Made by a program: the position numbers and the translations under genes
In this document: positions 39,422 to 63,496 of the stretch, piece after piece
Layout: the number at the start of each line of letters is the position of its first letter
Numbering within the stretch: position 1 is the stretch's first letter
The notes under the pieces: model-generated
Databases searched by the model: none
The model's input: the letters and a program-made list of their open reading frames with translations, nothing else
Told to the model about the DNA's origin: nothing
From: Clostridia bacterium
GTDB lineage: Bacteria; Bacillota; Clostridia; Peptostreptococcales; Acidaminobacteraceae
Direction of reading: 5' to 3'
DNA length: 64,000 bases
NCBI GenBank assembly: GCA_016937975.1
Contig: JAFGVN010000026.1
Span: forward strand, 1-64,000

Positions 39422-39567
39422 GAAAGCGCCTAGCGCTTTCTTTGCTTTTTTGAAAGCGCCTAGCGCTTTCTTTGCTTTTTTGAAAGCGCTTAGCGCTTTC
39501 TTTGCATTTTTGAAAGCGCCTAGCGCTTTCTTTTCATTTTTTGATAACGCCTAGCGCTTTCTTTGTT
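39422..39567 (+). repeat. Array of five tandem 30-bp terminator units
   Basis: Five head-to-tail units start at 39422, 39452, 39482, 39512 and 39543. Each holds an 8-bp stem GAAAGCGC/GCGCTTTC with a three-base CTA or TTA loop, followed by a T-rich tail (TTTGCTTTTTT type). Units 1-4 have perfect stems; unit 5 (GATAACGC arm) has two mismatches and is decaying. Each unit looks like a full intrinsic terminator on the plus strand only. The array lies 10 bases after atpC. The rest of the 363-base gap to the next gene holds a promoter at 39689-39717 and no gene. Confidence 0.9.
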
Positions 39568-39688: not shown

Positions 39689-39717
39689 TTTACAAATATG
39701 GGAATTAATTGTATAAT
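39689..39717 (+). promoter_or_regulatory. Promoter of the H-NOX chemoreceptor gene
   Basis: TTTACA (39689-39694) and TATAAT (39712-39717) with a 17-base spacer, giving a leader of about 50 bases. A second TATAAT at 39747-39752 lacks a -35 partner. Confidence 0.7.
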
Positions 39718-39774
39718 ATTAGATGAATAACTCGTGTGTAAAAGGGTATAATGCTTCCAAAGGAGTGTGATAAT

Positions 39775-41583
39775 TTGAAGGGTACAGTAGTAACTACTTG
39801 GGTAAAAACGTGTCGTAAAATTTATGGTGACACAGTTGTAAATGCAGCAATAAATGAAGTACATTTAGAAAATAATGGTGTCTATTCACCGCTTGTAGAC
39901 GTAAGTGATGACAAGGTTTTTAGTTTTATCAAAGCAATAGCATCAAAATCAAAAAATAAATATGATGATGTATGGGGAAAAATTGGTCTGGATAATATTG
40001 TTACATTCAGTTCAAATTATCCTGCGTTTTTTAGACATAAGCACGCCTTTCATTTTTTAAGCTCAATGAATGATGTACACCAAATTGTTCGTAAGAGGTT
40101 TAAAGGTTCAAACCCACCAGGATTAGATATGGAGCCTTTGAGAGGCAATAAGGCGAAATTTACATATCGTTCAAAAAGAGGAATGTTTCCTTATTTTCTT
40201 GGATTGGTAGAGGGTGTTTCAAAGCATTTTAATGAGAAAATTGAAGTTAAAGAATTAAGCAGAACAAATGATACTTTAGAATTGGAATTAACTTTTGAGT
40301 ATGAAACTGAAGTGGTCAAGAATTATCGACTAAACCGTTTTTTAACCTTTGGTTTTATAAAAAGTACCAGTTTAAAACTGGCATTGTTATCTGTGATTTT
40401 AACACTTTTTATAGTAGCACCGATGTCTTTACTAACTGATCGTGTGGATATTGTAACGGCATTGATATCAGCTGGCCTTGGCGGTTTGATGGTTTTCATT
40501 TCATCAAAATTGATTCATAGACCTTTAAGTTATGTTCTTGAAGAGCTGAGAGAGTTGAATAATCATAGCTTTGGTAAAAAAATAAAAGTTAAGACAGGCG
40601 ATGTTTACGAACTTATTTTTGAAGAGTTTAACAATTATAGAAGTATTACATCAAAAGATTTTGTTGGATTCAACAATATGTCGGACGAAATGAATACTTT
40701 TAGTGATGAATTGGCAAATATTGCAAGCAATATGACATTAACTTCAGATGAAATTTCAGATGTTGTTGAACAGTTAGCTGAGGCTGCAACGAATCAAGCT
40801 CATGAAACAGAATCTTCTATTAACACATTAAGTGAAAACATTGAAGAAGTTAAAAATATTGCAATGGAAGAAAACAGTAACAAGGAATTGCTTGAAGCTT
40901 CAGTTGGTAAAATAGAATCAAGTTTTACAAATGTTGAAAGAACTGCAGAAGAAATTAATCAGGTTTTGAAACAATTTGGTGTTGTAAAGGAAAATGGTAT
41001 CAAATTAAAGAGCTCTGCTCAAAACATTACAGATATTGTATCTATTGTTTCTAGCATTTCAGAGCAAACCAATTTGTTGGCTTTAAACGCTTCTATTGAA
41101 GCTGCAAGAGCTGGTGAAGCAGGTAGAGGTTTCGCAGTGGTAGCAGAAGAAGTAAGAAAGTTGTCTGAAGAAACCAGTAGGGCAGTTGATCGCATTAATA
41201 CGAGTTTGAACCAATTTGTCCGTGAGATTGAAAATCTCGTAGGAGATGTTGATAAGCAATATAATGTATTGGAAAATGAGAATGGTCAATTATCAAAAGC
41301 TGTTGATGAATCTTCTGAGGCTAAATCGACCATCAAGGAAGTTGCAAATGTAATGGTAATTACATCTAAAAAACTTATGGACGAAACTGCAAAGATTGCA
41401 AAAGTATTTACAAACATTGAATCACTTGCTGCAATTGCAGAAGAAAACTCAGCTTCATCTGAGCAAGTAAGTTCAAATGTAAGTGTCTATACAGATCAAA
41501 TAAAAGAATTATCGAATAACATTAAGGACTTCAAGGCATTAACAAATGAATTTAGTAAGGAATTAAGTGTTTATAAATTTTAA
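39775..41583 (+). CDS. H-NOX haem-domain methyl-accepting chemotaxis protein
   Basis: A 602-residue chemoreceptor with an N-terminal H-NOX gas-sensing haem domain (1-185), two membrane segments (about 200-222 and 229-248), and a C-terminal MCP signalling domain with the invariant tip [20 protein letters not shown] key residues match, at the same positions, the protein of Thermoanaerobacter/Caldanaerobacter tengcongensis as I recall it: proximal His102, Pro115, haem-propionate YxSxR (Tyr131, Ser133, Arg135), and the distal Trp9, Asn74 and Tyr140 that stabilise bound O2. It should therefore sense O2, and probably NO. The start is TTG with AAAGGAG 9 bases ahead, beginning MKGTVV as family members do; an ATG at 39751 has no site. 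Confidence 0.93.
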
Positions 41584-41585
41584 TC

Positions 41586-41615
41586 AAACTGCCTTTACAG
41601 GCAGTTTATTTTTTT
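41586..41615 (+). terminator. Terminator after the chemoreceptor gene
   Basis: A 9-bp stem AAACTGCCT/AGGCAGTTT with loop TTAC, then ATTTTTTT. Confidence 0.85.
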
Positions 41616-48031: not shown

Positions 48032-49102
48032 ATGCTTAGAGGAATGTATACAGCAGGCAGTGCAATGTTGGCAAATTCAAGAAGAATAGACGTTGTCAGT
48101 AATAACTTGGCCAATATTGACACAATAGCATTCAAGAAAGATCAAGTCTTGGTTGAATCCTTTGAAGAGGTTTTATTACAAAAGCAAAACGGATCACATC
48201 AAAATAATAATTATACGACACAAGGTTTCTCTAGTGAAAATTATGATGGCAGATATATTGTAAATGCACCGAATGCATTTATTAAATTAGATGGTAAAAG
48301 TACCTATAACTATAGTCATTCAGCAGAACTATATGTGGATGATGAAGGATATTTAAGTACCTTCTACAAGGATGGCAATGGTAGCATATATCCTAATAAA
48401 GGACAACGTGTTTATGGACAAAATGGTTATATCCAGGTTGGAGATCAAAATTTAGAGTTTGATGATGCTGGTAATGTTCTGCTAAATGGACAAGTTGTTG
48501 ATAATATTGTATACCTTCCAACGACTAACATTATCGGTACCATGGGCTATGGTATCCAAGTGGAGAGAACAGAAACTTTATTTGAACAAGGACAGTTGGA
48601 AAGAACAGATTATGCCTTTGATTTAGCCATAGATGGGAAAGGCTTCTTTGAAATAGAAGGACCTTCTGGACCGATTTATACCAGAGATGGTCGATTTAAG
48701 ATGAATGAGTTTGGTGAACTCGTGACCTCAGAAAATTTTAAAGTCAACGGTTTAAATGGCACAATTGCAGTAGATGGTGAAAATTTTCAAGTCAACCATT
48801 TTGGTGAAGTGATTGTAGATGGTGTTACTGTAGATAAAATAAAGACAGTTCAAATTGATAATTCTTATGATTTAGAAAAACTAGGATCAAGTTATTATCG
48901 ATTTGAAGCAGGACGTGAACTTTCAGAAGGTGAATTTACTGCAGATGTCCGACAAGGTTATATTGAAAAATCAAATGCTTCAAATTTAAATGAAATGATT
49001 GATTTAATGGAATTATACAGAAATTATGAATCCAACCAAAGAATGTTAACGGCATATGATGCAACTTTAGATAAAGCTGTTAATCAAATTGGCAGAGTAT
49101 AG
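48032..49102 (+). CDS. flgF: Flagellar basal-body rod protein, FlgF/FlhO type
   Basis: A 356-residue rod/hook-family protein. Seen: N-terminal rod motif RRIDVVSNNLANIDTIAFKKD, the central LAIDGKGFFEI domain, and the C-terminal helix NLNEMIDLMELYRNYESNQRMLTAYD. No signal peptide; it is exported by the flagellar type III system. It is longer than typical FlgF because of an inserted region (about 55-170) rich in Asn, Tyr and Gly. GGGAGGC precedes the ATG. Confidence 0.9.
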   Translation: MLRGMYTAGSAMLANSRRIDVVSNNLANIDTIAFKKDQVLVESFEEVLLQKQNGSHQNNNYTTQGFSSENYDGRYIVNAPNAFIKLDGKSTYNYSHSAELYVDDEGYLSTFYKDGNGSIYPNKGQRVYGQNGYIQVGDQNLEFDDAGNVLLNGQVVDNIVYLPTTNIIGTMGYGIQVERTETLFEQGQLERTDYAFDLAIDGKGFFEIEGPSGPIYTRDGRFKMNEFGELVTSENFKVNGLNGTIAVDGENFQVNHFGEVIVDGVTVDKIKTVQIDNSYDLEKLGSSYYRFEAGRELSEGEFTADVRQGYIEKSNASNLNEMIDLMELYRNYESNQRMLTAYDATLDKAVNQIGRV

Positions 49103-49118
49103 ATAAGGAAGTGAAATT

Positions 49119-49907
49119 ATGAGAGCTTTATATTCAGCAGCACAAGGTATGAAAGCACAACAACTGAATTTAGATACAATTTCGAATAACTTGGCCAATG
49201 TGAATACAACAGGTTTTAAGAAAACAAGAGTAGAATTTAAAGATTTATTATATGAGCAAATTAGAAGATCAAACTTTGCCAATGATGAAGGTCGACCAAC
49301 TGCAATGGAAGTTGGTAATGGTGTAGCTTTAAGTGCTACCTTAAGATCTTTTGAAGGCGGCTCATTTACTCAGACGCAAAATAGCTATGATATGGCCATT
49401 GATGGTGATGGCTTTTTCCAAGTGAGAGATGAAAACAATAATATTTTTTATACGAGAGATGGTAGTTTTAAAACAAGTATTACAAGTGGCGGTACAAAAC
49501 TTGTAACCTCAGAAGGTTATTTTGTACAAGGCGATGGTGGTGATATCGTTTTAGGTACTGATATCAGTGAAACCTCAGTTTCTAGAGATGGTGAAATTAG
49601 AGTAAAACGTTTGGATGGTACCGATGAAATCATTGGCAATATGAAACTTGTTAAGTTTGCCAATCCTGCTGGTTTAGAGTCGAAAGGCGGCAACTTGTTT
49701 GTTGAAACAGAAGCCTCTGGCGTCTCTGTTAACCCAACAGATGGTTCTGCTGGCAGTATTCTACAAGGGATGTTGGAAACCTCAAATGTTCAAGTGGTAG
49801 AAGAAATGATCAACTTAATTACGGCTCAAAGAGCATATGAAATGAGTTCAAAGGTTATCCAGACAGCAGATCAAATGTCTGAATTAGCAAATAATCTTAA
49901 AAGATAG
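49119..49907 (+). CDS. flgG: Flagellar distal rod protein FlgG
   Basis: A 262-residue distal rod protein, the usual length. Seen: MRALYSAAQGMKAQQLNLDTISNNLANVNTTGFKK, DMAIDGDGFFQV, and the C-terminal SNVQVVEEMINLITAQRAYEMSSKVIQTADQM. It begins 16 bases after flgF and is cotranscribed. Confidence 0.95.
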   Translation: MRALYSAAQGMKAQQLNLDTISNNLANVNTTGFKKTRVEFKDLLYEQIRRSNFANDEGRPTAMEVGNGVALSATLRSFEGGSFTQTQNSYDMAIDGDGFFQVRDENNNIFYTRDGSFKTSITSGGTKLVTSEGYFVQGDGGDIVLGTDISETSVSRDGEIRVKRLDGTDEIIGNMKLVKFANPAGLESKGGNLFVETEASGVSVNPTDGSAGSILQGMLETSNVQVVEEMINLITAQRAYEMSSKVIQTADQMSELANNLKR

Positions 49908-49916
49908 GTGAGATAG

Positions 49917-50321
49917 ATGAAAATTGATGCGAATACCATTACCCCTTTGGTTCAGGAAACCTTTAATAATGCAATCAGTCAATCTTCTGATACAGAAGGT
50001 GATTCATTTCAAGCAATTTTAGAAGCTGCCAAAGCAAGTGGTGACACGGAAAAACTAAGAGAAGTTTCCAATCAGTTGGAAGGTGTTTTCATTAACATGA
50101 TGATGAAAGTTATGCGAAATACCATTCCTGATTCAGAAGGAATTTTTCAAAAAAGTACAGCTGAAAAAATGTTTCAATCCATGTTAGATGAAACCTATGC
50201 AGATAAAATGGCTGAAGCAGGTGGTATCGGCATTAGTGACATGATATTTGACCAAATGGAAAAATACTTATATAATGAGGAAGATGAAAATCAAGGATCA
50301 TCTTTCGAGATGAAAGGATAA
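49917..50321 (+). CDS. Rod-binding protein (FlgJ N-terminal domain type)
   Basis: A 134-residue protein matching the rod-binding (Rod-binding/FlgJ N) domain that caps the growing rod. Seen: [25 protein letters not shown] and [27 protein letters not shown]. It lacks the muramidase domain of proteobacterial FlgJ, normal in Firmicutes. Starts 9 bases after flgG. Confidence 0.9.
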
Positions 50322-57551: not shown

Positions 57552-57609
57552 TATTGATAGTGATTTTCAATAGGCAAACTGGGTATAGGACTTTCAGGAG
57601 GTGTTTTTT

Positions 57610-58017
57610 ATGAAATTTCAATGGGAAGAAAACCTGGTGTTAGGTATTACCCAAATCGATAAAGAGCATATGGAATTGGTACAGCAAGCCAACAAACTGT
57701 TCGATGCCTTAGGTGATCCAGACAAAAGTTCAAAGGAGATTTTAGAGACGTTGAATTTTTTAGCAGGTTATGTGGTGAACCATTTCAATTCTGAGGAAAA
57801 ATTACAATTGAAATATGGTTATCCTATGTTTAACCAGCACAAACGTATCCATGAGGATTTTAAGAAAGAAGTAGCGACTTTAATTCATGATATTGAAATA
57901 AATGGACTGAAAACCTCGCAAAAATTGTCTATTAACAAAATGGTAATTCATTGGTTAAAAAATCATATTGGCGTAGAAGATCGAAAAGTAGCAGAGTATA
58001 TAAAGTCAAAACAGTAA
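57610..58017 (+). CDS. Bacteriohaemerythrin
   Basis: A 135-residue single-domain haemerythrin with a di-iron O2-binding site. The seven expected ligands are all visible: His20, His58, Glu62 (HFNSEE), His77 and His81 (HKRIH), His119 and Asp124 (HIGVED). It can store, deliver or scavenge O2, or sense it. The start follows AGGAGGTG by 6 bases. A second O2-related protein in this window, after the H-NOX receptor; together they suggest an anaerobe that meets oxygen. Confidence 0.94.
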   Translation: MKFQWEENLVLGITQIDKEHMELVQQANKLFDALGDPDKSSKEILETLNFLAGYVVNHFNSEEKLQLKYGYPMFNQHKRIHEDFKKEVATLIHDIEINGLKTSQKLSINKMVIHWLKNHIGVEDRKVAEYIKSKQ

Positions 58018-60513: not shown

Positions 60514-60858
60514 ATGGATAAGAGAATTGAAGCTTATTCCCATGAAAATATTCAGGTCATTCAATTCTTGGAAAGACTGACTTATGATGCTATACCCTTT
60601 TATAAGGAAGAATTTTTTAGTGCGATTGTACCTGCTTTTGGTTATGTTCTTGATTTAAGGAAAGTTTCATGGATTGATAGTACCGGTATAGGATTATTGG
60701 TTTCTGGGCTGAAGAGAATTGTTAATGAAGAACAACCGGTATCAGTGATTGTAACCAGTGAATTAATTAGAAAACTCCTTCATATATCCAAATTGGATGA
60801 GTTGTTTTATGTAACAGATGACTTGGATGACGCTTTAAGATATGTAAAGAAAAATTGA
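60514..60858 (+). CDS. STAS-domain anti-anti-sigma-type protein
   Basis: A 114-residue STAS protein, like SpoIIAA or RsbV. The phosphorylatable serine motif is in VLDLRKVSWIDSTGIGLLVSGLKR, with the conserved D-S-T-G-I-G at about 53-58. AGGAGG precedes the ATG. The phosphatase encoded next would dephosphorylate it in a partner-switching pathway. No anti-sigma kinase gene is in view, so the target is unknown. Confidence 0.9.
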   Translation: MDKRIEAYSHENIQVIQFLERLTYDAIPFYKEEFFSAIVPAFGYVLDLRKVSWIDSTGIGLLVSGLKRIVNEEQPVSVIVTSELIRKLLHISKLDELFYVTDDLDDALRYVKKN

Positions 60859-60870
60859 TGAGAGGATAAT

Positions 60871-62280
60871 ATGAAAATTAAAATAACAAATTATTATGAA
60901 ACTCAATCTACTTTGACTTTCTTGTCAGAAGAGAAGGCGTTGGATTATGAAGAACATACGATGGATTTAATACAATCCTATCAACCTATAGGCATTGTTG
61001 TATTGGATCATTTGACCAATCCCTTACCGATTGTTAAACAACTGAATGATATAGGCGTTTTAAACATTATTGTTGCACTGTCCAATGAGCAACTTTATTT
61101 GTCTGAGGCCTTATTGGACTTGGGTATTACGGATCTTATTTGGGATGCCATGCCGAGAAGGTTGGTGATTAAGGTCTTTAACAATGCCGTGAATATGATG
61201 TTTAAGAAATTCGTAGATCACATGAATATAATGTCTGTTATTTCAGACGCCAACGAAAAAATTATTTATGCAAATCCTACATTTTATCATGAGACAGGGT
61301 ATGATGAAAACGATGTCATTGGTAATAAAACAAACATTCTTAAGTCCGGTAAGCATAGCTTAATGTTTTATAATAATATTAAGCATACCTTAAAGGCTGG
61401 TTTTCCATGGGGTGGCATGTTTGTGAACAAAAGAAAAGATCAGTCTATGTTTAAGGAAAAATCCTATATCTTTCCTTTTGATCTCGATGGAACCAATTAT
61501 TATGGTAAGGCAGCTTTTAACGTCACTTTGGAAGAGAATATTGCGACTGAAAATAGACAAGCCCTTGAACTGGCTCGAATAATTCAACAGTCATTGCTTC
61601 CAGATGAAGTTTATGAAGAAAATATAACCATTCGTACCCGCTATGAACCCCTTGAGCATGTCAGTGGAGATATCTATAATATTTATCCTATTAATGAGGA
61701 TCTGTATGCTGTATTTTTGGCAGACGTTGTAGGTCATGGTATTGGGAGCTCACTTTTAAGTACCTCCATTATTGCCATTGCCAATGATTTGGTTAAAACA
61801 TATTATATGCCAGATGCGTTTTTAAATCGCTTAAATAACAAAATTATGGAATTATTCAAATCAAACGAGTTGCCACAAACCAGTTATTTTACTGCGATTT
61901 ATATGATTATTGATTTAAAGGAACATAAAGTGCACTATGCAAATTGTGGTCATCCATCCTTTTACTTAAAGGATGCTCATGGTCTTCAAAGTTTGATTAA
62001 AATAAACTTTTTTATTGGTATGTTTCAAAATGCAGCATTTGAATACAATACTTTTTCATATGAATCTGATTGTGAAATATTTTTGCATACAGATGGTTTA
62101 AATGAATTTAACAAAGGTTTAGAAGAAGGGGATATGTTGACTGAAGAACTTACATACTACTATAATTCACATACAGAGAAACCTCTTATTCAACATTTGG
62201 AAGAAAGTATTGTAAAAGCCAACAGAGATAAGTTAATTGATGATGTTACAATGATTCAAATAGATTTAAAAAGGAGCTAA
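60871..62280 (+). CDS. PAS-PP2C (SpoIIE/RsbU-type) protein phosphatase
   Basis: A 469-residue signalling phosphatase. The N-terminal segment (1-110) has a receiver-like outline, with VVLDHL near residue 46, but lacks the acidic cluster, so it is a degenerate receiver or other sensor. A PAS domain follows (about 113-225; ISDANEKIIYANPTFYHETGY). The C-terminal PPM/SpoIIE phosphatase (about 235-469) has metal motifs HVSGDIYN and LADVVGHGIGSS. It would act on the preceding STAS protein, encoded 12 bases upstream. Confidence 0.9.
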   Translation: MKIKITNYYETQSTLTFLSEEKALDYEEHTMDLIQSYQPIGIVVLDHLTNPLPIVKQLNDIGVLNIIVALSNEQLYLSEALLDLGITDLIWDAMPRRLVIKVFNNAVNMMFKKFVDHMNIMSVISDANEKIIYANPTFYHETGYDENDVIGNKTNILKSGKHSLMFYNNIKHTLKAGFPWGGMFVNKRKDQSMFKEKSYIFPFDLDGTNYYGKAAFNVTLEENIATENRQALELARIIQQSLLPDEVYEENITIRTRYEPLEHVSGDIYNIYPINEDLYAVFLADVVGHGIGSSLLSTSIIAIANDLVKTYYMPDAFLNRLNNKIMELFKSNELPQTSYFTAIYMIIDLKEHKVHYANCGHPSFYLKDAHGLQSLIKINFFIGMFQNAAFEYNTFSYESDCEIFLHTDGLNEFNKGLEEGDMLTEELTYYYNSHTEKPLIQHLEESIVKANRDKLIDDVTMIQIDLKRS

Positions 62281-62281
62281 A

Positions 62282-63496
62282 ATGAAAACCTTTATAGCCA
62301 GACAGCCGATGATTGACATCAATGGTGAAATTATTGGATACGAGTTGCTGTTTAGGAACAGTATGGTCAATCAAGCCGAAATTACGGATAATTATACAGC
62401 AACATTAAAAGTAATAAAGGATTTGATTATTAATTTTAATGTAAAGGAAATGTCCAATAATAAAAGAATGTTTATCAATTTTAACGATGAGACTATTTTA
62501 CAGGGCGCACCAGATTTATTTATGCCAGAAACTTTGGTTATAGAATTATTAGAAGACACTTCTGGCAGTGATGAACTTGTTGAAAAGCTCATGGCGTATA
62601 AAGATAAGGGATACCTTATTGCCCTAGATGACTTTTTATTTAAAAAAGGACTGGAAGCATTAATCGCCTTGGCAGATATTATTAAGTTGGATTTTTTTGA
62701 TCATGACCGACAAGCCGTTGTGGAAACCGTCAATTCATTAAAACCTTATAGAAAAATTCTACTGGCGGAAAAAGTTGAAACGGAAGAAGATGTGAATTTT
62801 GCAAAAGCTTTAGGCTGTACGATTTTTCAAGGTTATTTTTTCCAAAAACCAAAGATCTTTGAAGGCAAGGAAGTTGTAACGATGCCGACGGTATACCTGG
62901 AATTGTTAAAAATCCTCAATGAACCGGTAGTGGATTTTGAAGCATTGTCCAGTGTTATTTTGAGAGATTCGAGCTTAACCCTTTCTCTTTTGAAACTGCT
63001 AAATTCTGCAGCCTATTATTCCAATAAAAGAGTGACATCAGTGAAAATTGCATTGATTCGTTTAGGCATCAATGAAAGCAAGAAGCTCATTTTAGTCAAT
63101 ATGCTTAAAAACTTTATTGCAGAAGGAACCCTTGATGAAATCGTGAATATTTCCTTGAAAAGAGCCAAGCAAGCGGAATTACTTTCAGAGAAATTTAATT
63201 TAATCAAACGTAAAGATGAACTTTTTATTGTCGGTCTTTTGTCATTAATCAATATTATCATGAAAAGGCAAATGACGGATATATTAAGTAATGTGCCTTT
63301 AAATGGCGATGTCATAGATGCGTTGTTGGGCAAAGAGAATCAACTGAGCAAGGTCATTGACTTGATCATTTTATATGAAATGGGAGAAATCAATGGTGTA
63401 GAAGTGATTCTCACTCAAAGGAATCTTGATATTGAGACTTTCAATAGAATGTACATTGAAGCCACAATGTGGGCAGATGAGTTGTTAAGAGAGTAA
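62282..63496 (+). CDS. EAL-HDOD signalling protein (YuxH/CdgJ type)
   Basis: A 404-residue protein: EAL-like domain (about 1-200) then HDOD domain (about 205-390). In the EAL part the signature is YELL, Asp-Asp is kept in LIALDDF but the following glycine is Leu, and LLAEKVET and FQGYFFQKP remain. c-di-GMP hydrolysis is doubtful, as in relatives such as YuxH; binding or protein contact is more likely. The gene starts 1 base after the phosphatase stop, so it belongs to the same signalling operon. Vibrio CdgJ, of the same architecture, influences motility; the role here is inferred only. Confidence 0.88.
   Translation: MKTFIARQPMIDINGEIIGYELLFRNSMVNQAEITDNYTATLKVIKDLIINFNVKEMSNNKRMFINFNDETILQGAPDLFMPETLVIELLEDTSGSDELVEKLMAYKDKGYLIALDDFLFKKGLEALIALADIIKLDFFDHDRQAVVETVNSLKPYRKILLAEKVETEEDVNFAKALGCTIFQGYFFQKPKIFEGKEVVTMPTVYLELLKILNEPVVDFEALSSVILRDSSLTLSLLKLLNSAAYYSNKRVTSVKIALIRLGINESKKLILVNMLKNFIAEGTLDEIVNISLKRAKQAELLSEKFNLIKRKDELFIVGLLSLINIIMKRQMTDILSNVPLNGDVIDALLGKENQLSKVIDLIILYEMGEINGVEVILTQRNLDIETFNRMYIEATMWADELLRE

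Follow-up and report, generated by a model that had tools for sequence, protein, structure and literature searches.

The window analysed here is the whole 64,000-nucleotide stretch at the start of contig JAFGVN010000026.1 (GenBank assembly GCA_016937975.1), from a Clostridia bacterium of the Acidaminobacteraceae. On its + strand, with ATP synthase genes on one side and a response regulator/kinase pair on the other, lies a 602-aa open frame, running from a TTG codon at 39775 to a stop codon that ends at 41583, and encoding a predicted H-NOX chemoreceptor. The coordinates of the gene, of its flanking signals and of the codons and domains discussed below are collected in Table 1.

Table 1 Features of the H-NOX chemoreceptor gene and its flanks (positions in the 64,000-nucleotide window).
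Feature	Position	Strand	Remarks
Promoter-like site, sigma-70/sigma-A-type, TTTACA-N17-TATAAT	39689..39717	+	11/12 consensus matches only
Ribosome-binding-like sequence AAAGGAG	39759..39765	+	9 bases before TTG 39775
H-NOX-MCP chemoreceptor gene	39775..41583	+	602 aa, TTG start
H-NOX (HNOB) haem-binding domain, predicted	39775..40251	+	residues 1-159; profile match 2-159
Trp9 codon, distal H-bond triad	39799..39801	+	alignment; role as described in PMC7356049
Asn74 codon, distal H-bond triad	39994..39996	+	alignment; role as described in PMC7356049
His102 codon, proximal haem ligand position	40078..40080	+	alignment; role as described in PMC9814294
YxSxR motif, residues 131-135	40165..40179	+	alignment
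Tyr140 codon, distal O2-stabilising position	40192..40194	+	alignment; role as described in PMC9814294
Predicted membrane hairpin, two hydrophobic segments	40378..40515	+	within residues 202-247, hydropathy
MCP signalling domain	40939..41487	+	residues 389-571, Pfam
Intrinsic-terminator-like hairpin + T run	41586..41607	+	directly 3′ of receptor stop codon

An in-frame ATG is present upstream of the TTG, at 39751, but with this start the AAAGGAG sequence would sit inside the gene. Because AAAGGAG fits the TTG and falls between the two candidate starts, TTG 39775 is favoured, and this start, together with the residue numbering of the original prediction, is most likely correct. The promoter-like site is the best of 10 found in the region, where shuffled sequences gave 8.6 on average; terminator-like sites number 8, against 0.9 in shuffles. 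Since promoter-like and terminator-like sites of its own flank the gene, it looks like a separate transcription unit, as far as predicted signals of consensus type can indicate. The spacer between atpC and the receptor gene also contains a tandem array (39422-39565), in which a 30-base unit is repeated 4.8 times with 92% matches; four of the repeats score as intrinsic-terminator-like hairpins with a T tract. A 22-base pattern taken from the first hairpin of the array has a single exact match in the genome, at this same position, and the array was not seen in the corresponding stretch compared in two congeners (L138 and L027).

A close named counterpart is the H-NOX-MCP of Acidaminobacter sp. 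JC074 (L138/L015), assigned to the same genus by genome grouping, in a lineage that is anaerobic. That protein is also 602 aa long, with 74% identity over residues 1-172, and its gene likewise follows atpC, but starts with GTG and is separated from atpC by a different spacer. When the neighbouring genes were compared by tblastn with 80 named loci (the best 80 of 88 matches), atpC and atpD were found beside the gene only in L138, and response-regulator and kinase matches, which belong to common families, in five. Further along the window are flagellar rod/hook-type proteins (48032-49907), a rod-binding protein (49917-50321) and a stand-alone bacteriohemerythrin (57601-58017; NF033749 and TIGR02481, both over cut-off). 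These had been cited as fitting a receptor that guides swimming, and the genes are indeed present, but they begin ~6.4 kb (flagellar) and ~16 kb (bacteriohemerythrin) downstream of the receptor stop, past the terminator-like site, and are weak support for the role of the receptor, given that its gene comes with a promoter-like and a terminator-like site of its own. Beyond a RecD2-like helicase, at 60514-63496, lies a cluster encoding a STAS-domain protein, a protein with PAS and SpoIIE-type phosphatase-like domains and a weakly EAL-like protein, most matches being below curated cut-offs; on inspection, no cysteine motif of the LOV type was seen in the PAS domain.

The N-terminal part of the receptor matches the Pfam HNOB profile (PF07700) over residues 2-159 (E 1.3e-44; 152.5 bits, cut-off 25.5). 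Residues 1-190 were modelled with AlphaFold from 38 sequences and without haem; the model has a mean pLDDT of 89.1, and its top 18 PDB matches are all Tt/Cs H-NOX entries (assigned by title or sequence; TM 0.83-0.90), including 4it2 (TM 0.90) and the O2 complex 1u55 (TM 0.89, rmsd 1.5). Structures of Kordia, Shewanella and Nostoc H-NOX rank next (TM 0.77-0.83). Profile and predicted fold together place the protein in the H-NOX family. The fusion to a chemotaxis signalling domain that had been predicted is borne out by a Pfam MCPsignal match (residues 389-571, E 2.1e-31) and, with the hydrophobic segments at 202-247, indicates a membrane-bound MCP. These segments were called on the Kyte-Doolittle scale with a 19-residue window, overlapping windows being merged by eye; a crude scan of 121 MCP-fused relatives gave between 0 and 7 overlapping windows (none in 2/121), too wide a spread for scoring the hairpin family-wide. 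No HAMP domain was matched by Pfam in the receptor, although the residues following the hairpin look HAMP-like by eye; in the coiled region DUF489 matched weakly, below its cut-off, and was disregarded.

The H-NOX domain aligns with that of Caldanaerobacter subterraneus (Thermoanaerobacter) tengcongensis (Tt H-NOX; 1xbn, 1u4h) without gaps over residues 1-165 (E ~5e-38; 65/165 identical, 39.4%). Among 17 positions compared one by one, 16 are the same (W9, D45, W67, G71, N74, I75, F78, M98, H102, P115, Y131, S133, R135, Y140, G143 and L144), an agreement that, by alignment, is far beyond chance. The exception is I5 of the Caldanaerobacter protein, whose host is of a different lineage; the receptor has V here, as do 57/66 H-NOX proteins of the order sample described below. 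C. subterraneus DSM 13054 has a homologue of the same length (602 aa) that is likewise MCP-fused, as is the H-NOX of Clostridium botulinum (SONO). The domain thus carries both the haem-anchoring set (His102, Pro115 and YxSxR) and the distal set (Tyr140 with Trp9 and Asn74), all at the Tt positions, as the original prediction had it for all of these but Pro115. In accounts of the characterised proteins His102 is the iron ligand and Tyr140 stabilises bound O2 (PMC9814294), Trp9 and Asn74 being hydrogen-bonded to Tyr140 (PMC7356049). The H-NOX proteins of C. tengcongensis and C. botulinum, both with a distal tyrosine, are reported to bind O2 (PMC9814294, PMC7356049), and the match at W9, N74 and Y140 supports the predicted distal pocket of O2-binding type. 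C. botulinum is, moreover, an obligate anaerobe, and its protein resembles the receptor in having the distal tyrosine (PMC7356049), but its oxy complex is less stable. Possession of the triad does not determine affinity, because the C. botulinum and Caldanaerobacter proteins share the residues nearest the ligand and are described as behaving differently (PMC7356049).

A full-profile HNOB search of three overlapping whole-genome samples, at the level of order, class and phylum, gave matches in 66/198, 38/391 and 40/398 genomes, respectively, and in 138 distinct genomes altogether. Of these loci 137 were analysed, G752 being left out with a match below the family cut-off, and MCP fusion was scored by phmmer. 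At 121/137 loci, that of the receptor included, one and the same frame has Trp9, Asn74 and Tyr140 and also matches the MCP. At two loci (L051 and L076) the triad is present and the MCP part lies in a separate frame, two others are MCP-fused with the start of the domain missing and N74 and Y140 present, and three are fragments; L098, L099, L134, L136 and L137, broken or cut, were kept out of the three-position count and the tree. The triad was therefore found in 121/121 MCP-fused proteins readable at all three positions, and in the order sample all 66 H-NOX-bearing genomes have it.

The remaining nine loci, all from the phylum sample, encode stand-alone H-NOX proteins, which keep His102 (9/9) and mostly Y131/S133/R135 (7/9) but, unlike the receptor, have no MCP domain match, no Asn74 and no Tyr140. 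Position 140 is occupied by Leu, Ile or Phe, position 74 by Trp or Phe, and position 9 by Leu, Ile or Phe (Trp in 0/8 readable). Stand-alone proteins of solved structure, from Shewanella, Nostoc and Kordia, have the same fold as the receptor domain. In a tree calculated without the three triad columns (a quick method without bootstrap, with some long branches and an odd composition in four rows), the triad group and the stand-alone group fall on either side of a single branch, whose SH-aLRT support is 99%. In 123 sequences with a mean identity of 44% (2000 sampled pairs), 15 of the 159 columns are invariant, and these include W9, N74, H102, P115, Y131, S133, R135 and Y140; this set was chosen for the triad, yet no readable MCP-fused protein lacked it. 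A separate search of named loci also gave the triad in 80/80 (best 80 of 88 matches), a set not used as evidence of conservation, the search pattern having included Tyr140.

On these sequences, it is the MCP-fused H-NOX class that is characterised by the O2-type pocket in the sampled phylum. The statement that the tyrosine is missing from most other bacterial H-NOX holds for the stand-alone proteins (0/9) and fails for the MCP-fused ones (121/121), so that the original prediction was too strong on rarity: the triad is the rule among sampled MCP-fused H-NOX of the phylum, and its presence in the receptor is unremarkable for that reason. The receptor looks like an ordinary member of a family known from swimming anaerobic Clostridia. 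Two H-NOX chemoreceptors from the same order (L090 and L091, genomes G039 and G047), ~700 aa long, keep W9/N74/Y140 but have a longer and clearly different MCP part (E 7e-18 and 4e-17 against that of the receptor), which suggests that the output module has been swapped. A single-protein query of viral contigs, with a reach limited to close relatives, confirmed none there.

A role in chemotaxis is supported by the MCP domain, by three CheA (PF02895) matches in the genome of the receptor and by co-occurrence across the order sample, in which CheA is present in 64/66 H-NOX-positive and 51/132 H-NOX-negative genomes (Fisher p 1.7e-17, ancestry ignored). The two H-NOX-positive genomes without CheA are 85% and 63% complete. 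This is the pattern that a receptor feeding CheA should show. Read the other way, H-NOX is found in 64 of the 115 CheA-bearing genomes of the order sample, making the H-NOX-MCP class common among them.

Taking the gene, its domains and residues, the predicted fold, the distribution of the family and the CheA co-occurrence as the observed basis, the protein is probably an O2-binding-type H-NOX chemoreceptor that acts on CheA, with O2 avoidance the most likely response; haem and O2 binding we infer from the characterised relatives, and topology, signal transmission and direction of response are putative. The N-terminal H-NOX domain of this membrane-anchored receptor would be cytoplasmic, with ferrous haem, held by His102 and YxSxR, binding O2, and the bound O2 would be stabilised by Tyr140, which Trp9 and Asn74 would hold in place. 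Ligand binding would alter the shape of the haem and the domain by way of a glycine hinge (G71/G143) and Pro115, and the change would be relayed to the MCP helical bundle by the short membrane hairpin and a HAMP-like linker, altering CheA activity and hence swimming. For a strict anaerobe, movement away from O2 would be the most likely outcome. O2 chemotaxis has already been proposed in the literature for the class as a whole (PMC8738867, PMC9814294): in a 2022 review, H-NOX proteins of obligate anaerobes are described as O2-binding, with a distal Tyr, membrane-bound and MCP-fused, and are assigned to O2 chemotaxis (PMC8738867), while O2 avoidance is mentioned elsewhere as a presumed function which is said not yet to have been demonstrated even for the type protein (PMC9814294). 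A search of the open-licence literature found no behavioural test of an H-NOX chemoreceptor. To the class so described, the receptor adds one more member.

NO is the main rival to O2 as the signal. The receptor could physiologically be an NO receptor, with NO from nitrite/nitrate users or from hosts as its cue and O2 binding incidental, an account that we regard as unlikely. In its favour, NO too is a ligand of the tyrosine pocket, the relative in C. botulinum is described as an NO sensor of femtomolar sensitivity, and NO, CO and O2 are all given as ligands of Ct H-NOX (PMC9814294). However, the NO-specific H-NOX proteins of facultative anaerobes are reported to exclude O2, the distal Tyr marking the O2-binding group (PMC8738867), and Tyr140 in 121/121 readable MCP-fused proteins suggests that O2 binding has been selected for. 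Co-occurrence with Prismane, the family of the NO stress-linked Hcp, leans to NO in the order sample as a whole (64/66 H-NOX-positive against 105/132 H-NOX-negative genomes, p 0.0006), but among CheA-positive genomes the difference is gone (63/64 against 49/51, p 0.58), which undoes it as a means of telling O2 from NO; the family also holds CO dehydrogenases, a further point against reading it as an NO marker. Cytochrome bd, over cut-off in only 4/198 order genomes (3 of the 4 H-NOX-positive), is too rare to discriminate between the two gases. Because its subunit I is absent, at the same cut-off, from 63/66 H-NOX-positive genomes, including that of the receptor, O2 is probably not respired via cytochrome bd in these. 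That the gene is decayed or non-signalling is hardly credible: a TTG first codon and the lack of a HAMP match by Pfam could be read that way, but the 602-codon frame is open, ribosome-binding, promoter-like and terminator-like sites are all in place, and the JC074 homologue combines the domain identity noted above with the same position after atpC.

The supply of haem is the sole unexpected part of the case. In the genome of the receptor (a 98.66% complete draft) ferrochelatase (PF00762) has no match and AhbD (TIGR04545) none over cut-off, with scores of 20-23 bits against a required 500. Haem loading of the receptor is not assured, because neither marker is found there, and the missing synthesis step bears on whether the protein is haem-loaded in nature. 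In the order sample PF00762 matches 27/198 genomes at E 0.001, 6 of them over cut-off and one match being full length, and strong AhbD-like matches (E <= 1e-60) occur in 25/198. None of these is over cut-off (best scores in the 25 genomes 307-373 bits, against the curated 500); their identity as AhbD is putative. In 23 of the 25, a second, weaker match lies on the same contig, mostly adjoining, both genes being of radical-SAM type, which is the pattern that an AhbC/AhbD pair would give. AhbD-like matches go with H-NOX, being present in 22/66 H-NOX-positive against 3/132 negative genomes (Fisher p 2e-9); the contrast holds when CheA-positive genomes alone are considered (22/64 against 2/51, p 5e-5), with ancestry ignored in both comparisons. 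Nevertheless, 43/66 H-NOX-positive genomes, that of the receptor included, lack both an AhbD-like match at E 1e-60 and a ferrochelatase over cut-off, a count that drops to 39/66 once weak PF00762 matches are admitted.

One way to read this is that the receptor is largely a sensor of haem occupancy or redox state, its apo and holo (or oxidised) forms signalling differently in a cell that cannot make haem. This would accord with the missing PF00762 match, the weak AhbD scores and the 43/66 genomes without either marker, and heme-free V. cholerae H-NOX is reported to respond to cysteine oxidation (PMC7108781). It is nonetheless improbable, since every haem-pocket residue compared is kept in the receptor and haem may simply be imported. 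The V. cholerae protein, moreover, belongs to the stand-alone class. Since neither ferrochelatase nor an over-cut-off AhbD was matched in the genome, scavenged haem is plausible for the O2 chemoreceptor preferred here, and either imported haem or a route missed by the PF00762 and AhbD profiles is likely.

As a working rule for annotating H-NOX genes of this phylum, an O2-type pocket may be expected wherever there is an MCP fusion, there being no exception among 121 readable proteins, while the nine stand-alone proteins are without the tyrosine. Within the order sample, H-NOX is found either with an AhbC/AhbD-like (siroheme-dependent) route or without a recognisable last step of haem synthesis. 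The genome studied here falls in the second group, and we raise as a tentative possibility, itself somewhat doubtful, that a bacterium unable to make haem uses the receptor for O2/NO chemoreception, the sensitivity of the receptor being set by the haem that is scavenged. If this is true, the gas sense of the organism would be conditional on haem supplied by its neighbours.
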